Below, piece by piece: positions 27,687 to 31,914 of a DNA stretch of 33,968 nt (position 1 is the first letter of the stretch; each line of letters starts with the position of its first letter). Source of the stretch: an uncultured Verrucomicrobiales bacterium. GTDB lineage: Bacteria; Verrucomicrobiota; Verrucomicrobiia; Verrucomicrobiales; Akkermansiaceae. The translations under genes were made by a program, and so were the position numbers. The stretch is taken from the NCBI GenBank assembly GCA_937958875.1, contig CALGMJ010000127.1, forward strand, positions 1-33,968, read 5' to 3'. Below the pieces are notes generated by a model that worked only from the letters and a program-made list of their open reading frames with translations, did not search any database and had not been told where the DNA came from.

Positions 27687-28322
27687 TCAAAGCCAATCGA
27701 TCTGTCCTCCATCAGTGAGCACCTCCGCGACCACGGGCACGGGAGAAAGCTCATCAAGCATTGCTTTATTGGTAACTGCCGCAACATTTCGCTCCGCCTC
27801 GAGATGATTGAGAATAATTCCGAGACAAGGCAAGCCCGCAGCATGAATCGCCTTTACGGTGAGCAAGGTATGATTAATCGCACCAAGCCGATTGTCAGCA
27901 ACGATAAGAATTGGCATTTCTAAAGCTTTGGCAAATTCAGGAATGCCAAACCCCTCTCCAAGCGGAACCTCCCAGCCTCCAGCACCTTCCACGAGGGTGA
28001 AATCTACTTCAGCTCGCACCCGCGCAATATTCGCTACCATTTCATCAAGGTTCAGCGCGCGTCGCTCAATCCTACCCGCAGGTAAAGGAGCGATTGGAGT
28101 CTTATACCAGTATGGATTAATCGTATCGATATCGACCGTGCCTCCAGCCGCCTGCCAAAGACGCTCAGCATCATCCCGCTCGCCACTACAAACAGGCTTC
28201 AGCCCGACAGCATCAGCTCCAGCTTTTCGCATCTGCTCCACGATGAGCGCCGAGACATAAGTCTTCCCCACCCCGGTATCAGTACCAGTGACAAAAACAG
28301 AATTCTGATGATTCAGGATCAT
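27687..28322 (-). CDS. bioD: Dethiobiotin synthetase
   Basis: A 211-residue cytoplasmic enzyme that closes the ureido ring of dethiobiotin from 7,8-diaminopelargonate, CO2 and ATP, the step before BioB. The Walker A-like loop GTDTGVGKT is at 13-21, the substrate lysine K42 is in LKPVCSG, D51 follows, and the magnesium-site motif VEGAGGWEVP is clear. It is full length (E. coli about 225). No other biotin gene is in the window. Its ATG overlaps the stop codon of the 38-residue microprotein gene (ATGA), which ties its translation to the cdaA unit. Confidence 0.92.
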   Translation of the reverse strand: MILNHQNSVFVTGTDTGVGKTYVSALIVEQMRKAGADAVGLKPVCSGERDDAERLWQAAGGTVDIDTINPYWYKTPIAPLPAGRIERRALNLDEMVANIARVRAEVDFTLVEGAGGWEVPLGEGFGIPEFAKALEMPILIVADNRLGAINHTLLTVKAIHAAGLPCLGIILNHLEAERNVAAVTNKAMLDELSPVPVVAEVLTDGGQIDWL

Positions 28323-28435
28323 AAATTACCCGCGAGATGGAGTTTAATCAGATACCAGATCGCGATCGCGATCGCGAGAGCCAGAATCTTCGCCAGCCAA
28401 TTTCTCGCGAGCCACTTCTTGAGGAGGTTGTGCAT
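28319..28435 (-). CDS. CdaR-anchor-like microprotein (38 aa), overprinted on the cdaA 3' end
   Basis: A 38-residue frame (ATG at 28435, TGA at 28321-28319) in a different frame from cdaA. It encodes a short basic N terminus and one membrane helix, RNWLAKILALAIAIAIWYL, at residues 11-29, then a short polar tail. The pattern R-N-W-x-x-K-I-x-A-L-x-x-A-x-x-x-W/Y is that of the N-terminal anchor of CdaR/YbbR, whose gene normally follows cdaA directly and whose product binds CdaA and tunes c-di-AMP synthesis. The YbbR domains are absent, and there is no room for them: the stop overlaps the bioD start (ATGA). The first 92 bp overlap the last 30 codons of cdaA. There is no Shine-Dalgarno sequence; translation by coupling to cdaA is likely. 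Confidence 0.7.
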   Translation of the reverse strand: MHNLLKKWLARNWLAKILALAIAIAIWYLIKLHLAGNL

Positions 28436-29201
28436 GAGATGATAGGAAAATTTCGTTTAATCGTTTTCGGAAAGCTTTCTCAGATAAATCACGCTCCATC
28501 TTTCCATCGATACAAATCGAAAGCGCTCCCGTCTCTTCACTAACGATAATTGCAACGGCATCGCTTTCCTCCGAGACGCCTAGTCCAGCCCGATGTCTCA
28601 GCCCAAGTGATCGATCACTCAACTGCTTTTGGCTCACCGGGAAGACGCACCCTGCAGTCTGGACACGCTCATGAGCGATAATCATGCCTCCATCATGGAG
28701 TGCCGTTTTGTGATGAAAGATCGTCGCGGTTAGCTCTTTACTGAGAACCGCATCAATTGCGACCCCCGTTTCCGCAAAATTCTTTAACTCGATGGTTCGT
28801 TGAACCGCAAAGAGAGCGCCGAAACGTTTTTTTGAAAGCTGAATCGCCGAGTCTGCTAAAAGATCAAGAAATGCTTTCTGCTCGCTCGTTGAAAATCGAA
28901 AGAGTCTCGTACTACCTAACCGAGCGAGCGCATTACGGAGTTCAGGCTGGAAGATAATGAGAAGAGCAAAAGCCAAAACGGTAGCTACCCCTTTTAGAAT
29001 CCAGCCAATGACCTCTAGCTCAAGCAGCTTAGAAGTCAGAGTCAACGCAATCATCACTGCGGATAAGCCGATCAAAATGCGCGCTCCTCGAGTTGCACGA
29101 AAGACGCGGTAAATTTGATAGATCAGGATCCAGAGCACCAGAATCTCAGCCCCTGCGCGCCAGTGGACCTTTGCCTGCTCTAGTAATTCGATCAAATTCA
29201 C
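28344..29201 (-). CDS. cdaA: Diadenylate cyclase, membrane-bound (c-di-AMP synthase)
   Basis: A 285-residue enzyme that joins two ATP into cyclic di-AMP at the inner-membrane surface. Three N-terminal helices (about 18-34, 40-60, 64-86) precede the DAC domain (about 100-240) with the active-site motifs DGG (170-172; DGA in most relatives) and RHR (202-204). The start is GTG at 29201. The last 30 residues are a hydrophilic tail with RDRDRD that lies beyond the catalytic domain and is encoded by the same DNA as the microprotein in another frame. c-di-AMP commonly controls potassium and osmolyte uptake and wall homeostasis; no such target gene is adjacent. CdaR and GlmM, the usual neighbours, are not present as full genes. 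Confidence 0.93.
   Translation of the reverse strand: MNLIELLEQAKVHWRAGAEILVLWILIYQIYRVFRATRGARILIGLSAVMIALTLTSKLLELEVIGWILKGVATVLAFALLIIFQPELRNALARLGSTRLFRFSTSEQKAFLDLLADSAIQLSKKRFGALFAVQRTIELKNFAETGVAIDAVLSKELTATIFHHKTALHDGGMIIAHERVQTAGCVFPVSQKQLSDRSLGLRHRAGLGVSEESDAVAIIVSEETGALSICIDGKMERDLSEKAFRKRLNEIFLSSHAQPPQEVAREKLAGEDSGSRDRDRDLVSD
28358..28377. repeat. Hexanucleotide tandem repeat (GATCGC)3
   Basis: Three exact copies of GATCGC plus two further bases lie inside the overlap of cdaA and the microprotein gene. In cdaA the repeat gives RDRDRD; in the microprotein it gives AIAIAI inside the membrane helix. Because the unit is 6 bp, gain or loss of a copy would keep both frames. Confidence 0.85.
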
Positions 29202-29226: not shown

Positions 29227-30492
29227 TCAAGAAGCGGTGCAAGGCACCAAGATCCCATCACGCATTCCATGGATCTTTTTCTTATCTGCAGGAACAATCG
29301 TCGCGAGGCAGCCCTTCAAATTCGTCCGCCCCTCACCGTCAACAAAGTAGTATGGACAAAGCCGAACCCGCCCTTTCATGATAAGTCGTTCTCCCGTCTC
29401 AGGATCAAAGTATGGATGCTCAATGACTTTTGCCTCCGCAAACTCCTGGAGAACCCACGGTTGATAGTCGAAATTTCCCTGCGCAGAAGTCATAGCCGAC
29501 TGCCATTCAGATCCAGAGACGTCGTGTCCAATGACCACTCCACGTGATCCCCAAGCCAGTTCGTGAAAGCCACTCACCTTCAACACCAAGCGGCGCATTT
29601 TTTGACTAAATTCACCGACTTCATCCCAAGATCCGACCTCTAAACGCGGTAAGGCAGCATGTGGTGGAATTTCACTCGGATCAACCACCCAACCATAAGG
29701 AATGAGATCTCGAAGACGCTTGAGGTGACTCCCCCGCAGCTCCTTTTCCCAGATCTTCTTCATTGCGGGAGACCAAAACAGAGCCAGCCACATTTTCTCT
29801 TCTAAATGAGGCTTAAAAGGTGGCGTCACGCTGCCACGCTGAGCAAGCTCCTTCGCTCTCGGAATCGCCTCCCAATCAAAACACTCAAAAAAACGATAAA
29901 CCTCCTCTTCTCCGCCAGCCCATTCCTCCGCGGAAATGACTCGATAACGCTCCCCTAATTGAGTGGCAAGCCACTCCATCTCAGGCCGATAGTCAGCTGA
30001 TTCTTCTGAAACAAGAATTTCTCCTCCTTTCGGAAGAAGCGATTGAAAACCATCTAACATCCCCTTCTCCCCGCCGAAAATTTCAAACCCCGCCTGAGCG
30101 TAGCATTGTGATAGCCAAGCGAGCACCCCAATCCCACCAGGAACTGAATCTAACTCTGAAACAGCAAACCCATCTTCAGTCAGCAACAGGTCAGGACGGA
30201 TGACATTTGGCATTTCATTACGATTTTCACGCTGTAGATCCACCATCCAGCTTGGTTTTCCCGCATCCAGGACCTCTGAAATCCATCTAGGTAATTTTCC
30301 CTCTCCACTCTGCCGATAAATTTCATCGCTAGCCTCCTGAAAGCGACGCAGAGGATGTCCTAAGCCTTCTAAAACCTTACGTTGCCCCTTTGCCAAAGGA
30401 AAGGGCTCAGGAGACCAAAGCCACTCGCGGTCTGCGAAAAGCCCATCGGCAGGCATAGCCTCACGGAGATCATTGATCGTTAGCGCTGACAC
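29227..30492 (-). CDS. Hypothetical protein, possibly a circularly permuted ATP-grasp enzyme
   Basis: A 421-residue soluble protein that I cannot place firmly. Several stretches suggest the glutathionylspermidine-synthase-like type of ATP-grasp fold: RPDLLLTEDGFAVSELDSVPGGIG near residues 118-141, a lysine-containing strand RLVLKVSGFHELAWGSRGV followed by WVLQEF about 30 residues later, and a late KGRVRLCPYYF segment. These could be the metal and ATP-binding parts of a ligase that joins an acid and an amine. The start is GTG at 30492. It stands 25 bp before cdaA on the same strand and heads the nine-gene run. The substrate is unknown and the fold assignment should be treated as tentative. Confidence 0.6.
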   Translation of the reverse strand: MSALTINDLREAMPADGLFADREWLWSPEPFPLAKGQRKVLEGLGHPLRRFQEASDEIYRQSGEGKLPRWISEVLDAGKPSWMVDLQRENRNEMPNVIRPDLLLTEDGFAVSELDSVPGGIGVLAWLSQCYAQAGFEIFGGEKGMLDGFQSLLPKGGEILVSEESADYRPEMEWLATQLGERYRVISAEEWAGGEEEVYRFFECFDWEAIPRAKELAQRGSVTPPFKPHLEEKMWLALFWSPAMKKIWEKELRGSHLKRLRDLIPYGWVVDPSEIPPHAALPRLEVGSWDEVGEFSQKMRRLVLKVSGFHELAWGSRGVVIGHDVSGSEWQSAMTSAQGNFDYQPWVLQEFAEAKVIEHPYFDPETGERLIMKGRVRLCPYYFVDGEGRTNLKGCLATIVPADKKKIHGMRDGILVPCTAS

Positions 30493-30606: not shown

Positions 30607-31914
30607 ATGTTCTTTCTGAATAAAATGTTCCAACTCCGGGATAAGGCGAACCCGGACGCCGAGAAGCCCTTTCTGGATCACTTGGAAGATCTCCGAGTCA
30701 TGGTAACCCGGGTAGTCTTGACCCTGCTGATTGCCACCGTTGCTTGCTTCGCCTTTCGCAATGACTTGATGGATATTCTAAAAAAACCCATCACCGAAGT
30801 CTGGGAAAATCGACATCAAGCAGCTCTCCCCAGTGATATCGCCCTAGAAGATTGGGAAAAAGCTCTCGCCTTTGCCGACGTCGCTCCACAGCTTGAAAAC
30901 AATCATCCGCATTTAGCAGAAAACTGGTGGCAGGAACTTGATAAAGGACGTCTCCGCCCCCTTACCAGAGCTGCTATCGTCTACCGCGCGGCAGAGCTCC
31001 TACCGGAAGAAAAGCGGGAAGATTTCCTTAAAAAACTTCCCGAAACCGAGCAAGAAATCAAAGATCTCACGCTCCAACTTCTGGAAAAAAAACCTGCCAC
31101 CGATCTCAACGCCTCCGGAAACCTCCGGCTTATGAGCTCACTGAAGCCTACTGAGACTTTCATGCTCACCATGAAACTCGCCTTCTTCGCTGGTATTGTC
31201 GTCTCCTTTCCCTTCCTTCTCTACTTCATCCTCCAATTTGTCATCCCCGGCTTAAAAGCAGAGGAACGGCGTGCCCTCTGGCCCGCCATGGCAATTGGCT
31301 TTGGCCTTTTTCTCGGAGGAGTTCTTTTTGCCTATTACCTCGTTCTCCCTGAGGTCCTGAATTTCTTCTACGACTGGGGAAGCGAAATCGGCGTCTCCAA
31401 CGATTGGCGCATTGGTTACTACATTTCCTTCGCCACTCAGTTCGTGCTCATCTTTGGCCTCTCCTTCGAGCTCCCAGTCATCGTCATGACACTCGTTCAT
31501 CTCGAAATTCTGAGCCATACCATGATGAGGGAAACACGTTCCTACGCCATTCTAGCCATCGTGATCATCGCCGCGATCATCACCCCGACTCCAGATGCTT
31601 TCACCCTCATGCTACTCGCTGGCCCCATGATCTTCCTCTACGAGGTATGTATCTGGCTTTCCTACTTCCATGAGAAAAAGCGAGACCGTCGTGAACAAGA
31701 AGAAGAGGATGAACACCTTCGCCGTCTCCTAGCAGATCCCGACCCTGAAGATGAACTTCATGGAGATGAAGAAATCGACGATGGTGAGCCCATCACCGAC
31801 GATGATGACTACATGGACTACCCTGGCGAACACCAGAATCCCGAAGAAGATCCTGATTACGACCCTCTTGATCCAGACGACGACATTCCCGAAGAGGAAA
31901 AAGATCGTAAATGA
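30607..31914 (+). CDS. tatC: Twin-arginine translocase TatC with enlarged P1 loop and acidic tail
   Basis: This is the inner-membrane receptor of the Tat pathway, which exports folded proteins. Core features are present: FLDHLEDLR (22-30; E27 matches E. coli E15) before TM1 (33-50), ETFMLTMK (183-190) leading into TM2, EERR (219-222; E. coli E103 region), FELPVIV and TPTPDAFT before the last helices. The protein has 435 residues instead of about 250. Roughly 105 extra residues (66-172, helical, charged, with WW) enlarge the first periplasmic loop, and a strongly acidic cytoplasmic tail of about 75 residues (360-435) is added. The start may be ATG 30607 or 30625. No tatA or tatB is adjacent. 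Confidence 0.92.
   Translation: MFFLNKMFQLRDKANPDAEKPFLDHLEDLRVMVTRVVLTLLIATVACFAFRNDLMDILKKPITEVWENRHQAALPSDIALEDWEKALAFADVAPQLENNHPHLAENWWQELDKGRLRPLTRAAIVYRAAELLPEEKREDFLKKLPETEQEIKDLTLQLLEKKPATDLNASGNLRLMSSLKPTETFMLTMKLAFFAGIVVSFPFLLYFILQFVIPGLKAEERRALWPAMAIGFGLFLGGVLFAYYLVLPEVLNFFYDWGSEIGVSNDWRIGYYISFATQFVLIFGLSFELPVIVMTLVHLEILSHTMMRETRSYAILAIVIIAAIITPTPDAFTLMLLAGPMIFLYEVCIWLSYFHEKKRDRREQEEEDEHLRRLLADPDPEDELHGDEEIDDGEPITDDDDYMDYPGEHQNPEEDPDYDPLDPDDDIPEEEKDRK

Follow-up and report, generated by a model that had tools for sequence, protein, structure and literature searches.

A 38-codon gene at the cdaA-bioD junction of an Akkermansiaceae genome is probably a CdaR reduced to its membrane anchor

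We analysed a window of 33,968 nucleotides on a contig of an uncultured Akkermansiaceae bacterium (genome G000 in our sample; a 2.9-Mb assembly, 77% complete), at the junction between cdaA and bioD (Table 1). The cdaA product scored 220.8 bits against the TIGR00159 cut-off of 188.8, and both the transmembrane CdaA_N domain (PF19293) and the DAC domain (PF02457) are present; its first codon is GTG, and the start is uncertain. The end of cdaA, which in its own frame reads as a charged tail (...SRDRDRDLVSD), overlaps a small ORF, hereafter the anchor ORF, whose translation is MHNLLKKWLARNWLAKILALAIAIAIWYLIKLHLAGNL. The first-pass annotation had proposed this out-of-frame ATG-to-TGA frame without giving its strand; we confirmed it on the minus strand, and both the claimed 92-bp overlap with cdaA and the stop shared with the bioD start were exact. 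As had also been claimed, one hydrophobic helix was predicted in the product. The net charge is +4 ahead of the helix and 0 behind it, so that, by the positive-inside rule, its predicted orientation is N-in/C-out. A search of Pfam and NCBIfam with the 38 residues identified no recognised family. Shine-Dalgarno-like sites were absent from both the anchor ORF and cdaA in the window and were found at 3/76 anchors and 5/76 cdaA starts in the wider set of loci; since anchor and cdaA alike do without such sites, this scoring was uninformative.

Table 1. Features at the cdaA-bioD junction, in window coordinates
Feature	Position	Strand	Details or basis
Putative anchor-only CdaR gene	28319..28435	minus	ATG at 28435, TGA at 28321-28319, 38 codons
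CdaR-anchor motif N-W-x-x-K-x3-L-x2-A-x3-W-x2-I	28346..28402	minus	N12 to I30; MAFFT register and profile-profile comparison
cdaA, CdaA-type diadenylate cyclase	28344..29201	minus	TIGR00159, PF02457, PF19293
Out-of-frame overlap of anchor ORF and cdaA 3′ end, 92 bp	28344..28435	minus	Sequence; stop position and substitution pattern in relatives
ATGA junction of anchor stop and bioD start	28319..28322	minus	Sequence
bioD, dethiobiotin synthase, next gene	27687..28322	minus	TIGR00347, 152.6 bits

Two further genes of the window were noted in passing. Directly upstream of cdaA and on the same strand lies a gene for a 421-aa protein (29227-30492, minus) that has no Pfam match above cut-off. The gene at 30607-31914 on the plus strand encodes 435 aa resembling TatC; as judged by eye from the translation, the first helix is followed by an insert of about 110 residues, and the C-terminal tail is long and acidic.

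When the cdaA tail was randomly recoded with synonymous codons, the anchor frame was open in 46% of the draws, and open as well as membrane-like in 21%, indicating that in a single genome such a frame is not beyond chance. The anchor ORF might then be an accidental open frame that looks hydrophobic because the cdaA tail is written in charged, DR-repeat codons. The comparison of relatives speaks against this. A short gene behind cdaA was found in nearly all Akkermansiaceae and in most of the Verrucomicrobiales examined. Within the same genus the anchor frame was intact at every locus whose contig extends past cdaA, with its ATG 80-92 nt upstream of the cdaA stop. The same place is taken, throughout the Akkermansiaceae and in the majority of the order's other families, by a short frame that encodes one helix and the motif N-W-x-x-K-x3-L-x-L-A-x3-W-x-L-I. 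In 83/98 loci the distance from the anchor W codon to the cdaA stop is exactly 53 nt, and the anchor ATG of many relatives is immediately preceded by an in-frame stop (at W minus 39 nt). The ATG, the motif and the length of the anchor persist across relatives while the cdaA tail drifts, and in other families the same gene is free or nearly free of the cdaA overlap. At locus L188 the two genes share just 23 nt.

The gene is also kept away from cdaA. In G180 (locus L181) and G191 it lies about 760 and 1280 nt from cdaA, respectively, and, being retained despite these gaps, it persists there as a free-standing gene; L181 was scored 'none' in our anchor tally because of this distance. At locus L048 an anchor-like stretch lies within a longer frame. 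In family f3 of the order (L050, L051, L052 and L054) and at L049, CdaA is kept and no anchor ORF was seen, so that the anchor has been lost altogether at these loci; since f3 keeps CdaA without it, the anchor is not indispensable. Among the side observations, the tryptophan W13 of the anchor (28397-28399), three residues ahead of the conserved lysine, is present in 53/58 anchor-only proteins and variable in YbbR-bearing CdaR.

We then examined which of the two frames is under selection in the overlap. With 76 distinct loci placed on a tree, parsimony changes per site in the overlap amounted to 4.5/2.4/12.1 at anchor codon positions 1/2/3. Read in the cdaA register, the same overlap gave 12.1/4.5/2.4, a pattern opposite to that in the core of cdaA (6.1/2.7/20.5), and a difference of this size was reached in 0/20,000 draws of a position permutation. 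Since the substitutions track the codon positions of the anchor and not those of cdaA, the anchor frame is the coding frame of the overlap. A pair test over 29 disjoint close pairs agreed with this: the dN/dS-like ratio was 0.29 for the anchor frame (0.34 when conditioned on the cdaA frame), and that of the cdaA tail was 1.5. When the anchor frame was conditioned on in turn, the tail gave 1.27 at anchor-nonsynonymous sites and about 0.39 at anchor-synonymous sites, the latter from an observed-to-expected comparison of 1.93 vs 5.01 with just 12 events; these data leave room for a weak constraint on the cdaA tail. Comparison of the junction in both frames, which the first-pass annotation had proposed as a check, thus places the anchor frame under selection and shows it kept across relatives. 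The frame, the ATG and the motif are kept across about 90 loci and, together with the codon-position pattern, take the anchor ORF beyond chance. We judge an accidental frame to be extremely improbable, the codon-position test having already refuted it. On this comparative evidence the anchor ORF is taken to be a genuine, conserved protein-coding gene, presumably translated into a free peptide.

The same results reverse the polarity of one earlier claim. The first-pass annotation had described a microprotein overprinted on cdaA; here the small frame is constrained and the tail hardly so, and therefore it is the cdaA tail that overprints an older anchor gene.

The resemblance of the anchor ORF to the N-terminal anchor of CdaR, claimed in the first-pass annotation, was examined with profiles. 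A CdaR N-terminus profile was built from 25 sequences, all from outside the class of the window organism, and searched against the six-frame translation of G000. The anchor ORF was the top match (E 0.0034, 19.4 bits), ahead of a runner-up within a 274-residue frame (E 0.034); the score is modest, and short transmembrane helices are prone to chance matches. An anchor profile built from 22 anchor-only proteins identified the window locus in G000 at an E-value of 4.8e-15, with the next place at 0.95. Aligned with hhalign, the CdaR N-termini and the anchor-only profile matched with a probability of 97.4% (E 1.5e-11, 34 columns), and the motif register was identical in the MAFFT alignments of CdaR N-termini and of anchor-only proteins. 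The YbbR domain (PF07949) was looked for in the anchor ORF, in G000 and in 113 genomes of its order and was absent from all of them, so that by domain definition the anchor ORF is not a member of the YbbR family. This search also bears on whether a full-length cdaR lies elsewhere in the genome: the 77% complete G000 held no YbbR match.

Intermediates between a full CdaR and a bare anchor were found at the same place. In a sample of the phylum, YbbR was detected in 110/195 genomes, all belonging to classes other than that of the window, and outside the class a CdaR of 310-350 aa stands behind cdaA, usually with an ATGA-type overlap. A denser sample of the class placed 21/141 genomes above the YbbR cut-off. 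Two reduced states were seen there behind cdaA: the same anchor with two YbbR units (about 220-230 aa) and the same anchor with one (about 125-150 aa). In the remaining families, just 46-70 residues are left behind cdaA. Four Akkermansiaceae loci (L030, L093, L110 and L112) carry, after the anchor, a charged and helical-looking tail of about 70 residues with no YbbR match, possibly a new extracytoplasmic extension. As a separate observation, families f9, f7, f14 and f58, among others in the class, showed no CdaA-type cyclase. All that was found in them is a protein about 455 aa long whose match to the cyclase profile is confined to a small part (positions 169-239); this protein may be a cyclase of another type or unrelated.

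In a CdaA tree with 125 rows and SH-aLRT support, most of the anchor-only loci fell into a single 65-row clade (SH-aLRT 95), and a second, separate anchor-only group comprised three rows (L260, L265 and L267). Since anchor-only loci fall in two separate clades, the bare anchor has at least two origins. The one-YbbR and two-YbbR loci formed clades of their own; L030 and L110, tallied as 'one' within the 65-row clade, have a non-YbbR tail. As read from this tree, the clade in the anchor-only state comprises many families and includes Akkermansia. The earlier attribution of the state to 'this lineage' thus holds in that the lineage is anchor-only, and was too narrow in scope, as the state extends over many families and arose more than once.

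The match to the CdaR profile and the graded series at the same place together lead to the reading that the anchor ORF is a CdaR cut down to its transmembrane anchor, that is, the CdaR anchor by descent as judged from sequence. The claim that the lineage keeps the CdaR anchor alone beside CdaA was well supported by the profile matches, by the one- and two-YbbR intermediates and by the lack of YbbR in G000 and the 113 genomes. The same data bear on convergence, in which an independent small membrane protein came to resemble the CdaR anchor and acts as an unrelated accessory subunit of CdaA. Short helices converge easily, and the invariant tryptophan ahead of the motif (53/58) is mostly missing in YbbR-bearing CdaR. 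However, the two kinds of protein have in common their place behind cdaA, the start region and the register of the motif, and the intermediates with one and two YbbR units occupy that place as well. We therefore regard convergence as improbable and retain descent from CdaR as the preferred reading.

The neighbouring genes and two natural fusions bear on how the peptide is made and what it is made for. Directly after the anchor, glmM was found in 24/58 anchor-only loci, compared with 16/20 for one-YbbR cdaR, and in the window bioD takes its place. The ATGA overlap with bioD could mean that the frame is a translational device that couples bioD to cdaA, with a peptide useless in itself. Yet selection acts on the amino acids, and the motif is retained where glmM lies downstream and in fusions with CdaA; we consider such a device very unlikely. 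The fusions were found in G052 and G080, both draft assemblies, in which CdaA and the anchor are joined in one frame; both lie inside the 65-row clade. G080 belongs to the same genus as the gut-type Akkermansia of locus L188, and the tail of its fusion (...EIRRSHP) matches that of the free anchor in L188. A further candidate fusion, L185, was rejected, as the anchor and cdaA are in separate frames in G212. Prediction by AlphaFold2 of the natural G052 fusion, with an alignment of CdaA rows only, gave a C-terminal helix (residues 266-317) after a low-confidence linker; the mean pLDDT was 78.9, and the output carries no contact information.

With two relatives encoding an in-frame fusion and an overlap that would permit frameshifting, the helix could also be made mainly as a CdaA-anchor fusion through ribosomal frameshifting in the overlap. 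Other families, however, have the gene without any overlap, and free initiation is the simpler explanation because the ATG is conserved and an in-frame stop lies just ahead of it in many relatives. Frameshifting as the main route thus seems quite improbable, and we favour an anchor made as a free peptide.

Conserved residues of the helix fall on one side. With intervals of 4-3-4-3, K16, L20, A23, W27 and I30 share a single helix face. The phase of the conserved face was 349 degrees in anchor-only proteins and 346 degrees in YbbR-bearing ones, with permutation p values of 0.0075 and 0.005, respectively. This test is partly circular because the sequences were registered on the motif itself; the MAFFT alignments recovered the five face positions without that registration.

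Earlier work places the contact between the two known proteins in the membrane: CdaR contacts CdaA via transmembrane parts (PMC10243994, PMC6368335), and two-hybrid work located the CdaR contact at the transmembrane region of CdaA (PMC6368335, PMC8573169). CdaR can be an activator or a repressor, which of the two varying with species and condition; the mechanism is described as unknown (PMC8573169, PMC9259658), and so is its mode of action on CdaA (PMC8573169, PMC10243994).

Based on the above results, we propose the following course of events. The ancestral state would be that of Verrucomicrobiota outside the class, with cdaR behind cdaA encoding a membrane anchor and several extracytoplasmic YbbR domains. 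Within the class, the extracytoplasmic part would have been cut stepwise from two YbbR domains to one and then to none, and the lineage of the window would be left with the single anchor. In the Akkermansiaceae, the cdaA frame would then have extended into the older anchor gene, and the charged CdaA tail would be a by-product of reading over that gene. The helix would sit N-in/C-out in the inner membrane with its conserved face (K16, L20, A23, W27 and I30) packed against the membrane helices of CdaA. By analogy with CdaR, the anchor would bind CdaA and, we infer, affect c-di-AMP. A one-helix, constitutive subunit of CdaA is the most likely role, one that would assemble or stabilise the cyclase or set its output with no outside sensor.

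Taken together, we give a probability of about 0.82 to the reading that the anchor gene descends from cdaR, was stepwise reduced to the transmembrane anchor and most likely serves as a minimal partner of CdaA. We also lean towards the wider view that the functional core of CdaR is its transmembrane helix by itself; the whole clade, gut Akkermansia included, would then regulate or assemble its cyclase with a one-helix subunit of 35-60 residues, and the YbbR part would be dispensable, having been lost at least twice.

The natural series that leads from a full CdaR to the anchor alone, the repeated loss and the two fusions point to the indispensable part of the regulator and offer a minimal system. 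The case also illustrates how a conserved regulator may escape gene callers, and it corrects the usual assumption about overprinting, the small frame being old and the tail of the large gene the newcomer. In the relatives of Akkermansia muciniphila that were examined, the anchor was the sole CdaR remnant found. The A. muciniphila version of the anchor has 50 residues. In cancer therapy, the c-di-AMP of A. muciniphila is reported to act as a signal that stimulates the immune system (Lam et al. 2021, as cited in PMC10243994). The searchable literature, in which few subscription papers are covered, yielded no earlier description of an anchor-only CdaR.

Among known systems, CdaR (YbbR) of Firmicutes and others is the closest. 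It is likewise encoded right behind cdaA, and its N terminus forms a single transmembrane anchor in which the motif register and the N-in/C-out charge pattern are those of the window anchor, and the classical order cdaA-cdaR-glmM is retained in many anchor-only relatives. CdaR has been described with three or four YbbR domains (PMC10243994). The window anchor has none and measures 38 aa against more than 300, and it differs further in overlapping cdaA out of frame and in being followed by bioD instead of glmM. CdaA-CdaR fusion proteins are known in some streptococci (PMC10243994) and, as in G052 and G080, join CdaA to the transmembrane part of CdaR. In G052 and G080, however, only the anchor and a short tail are attached, and in the window the two genes are separate. 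Small single-helix subunits of membrane enzymes, such as KdpF and CydX, resemble the anchor in being tiny, conserved one-helix proteins encoded beside a presumed enzyme partner. To our knowledge these subunits are not remnants of a larger regulator, whereas for the window anchor both a larger ancestor and the intermediates are visible.
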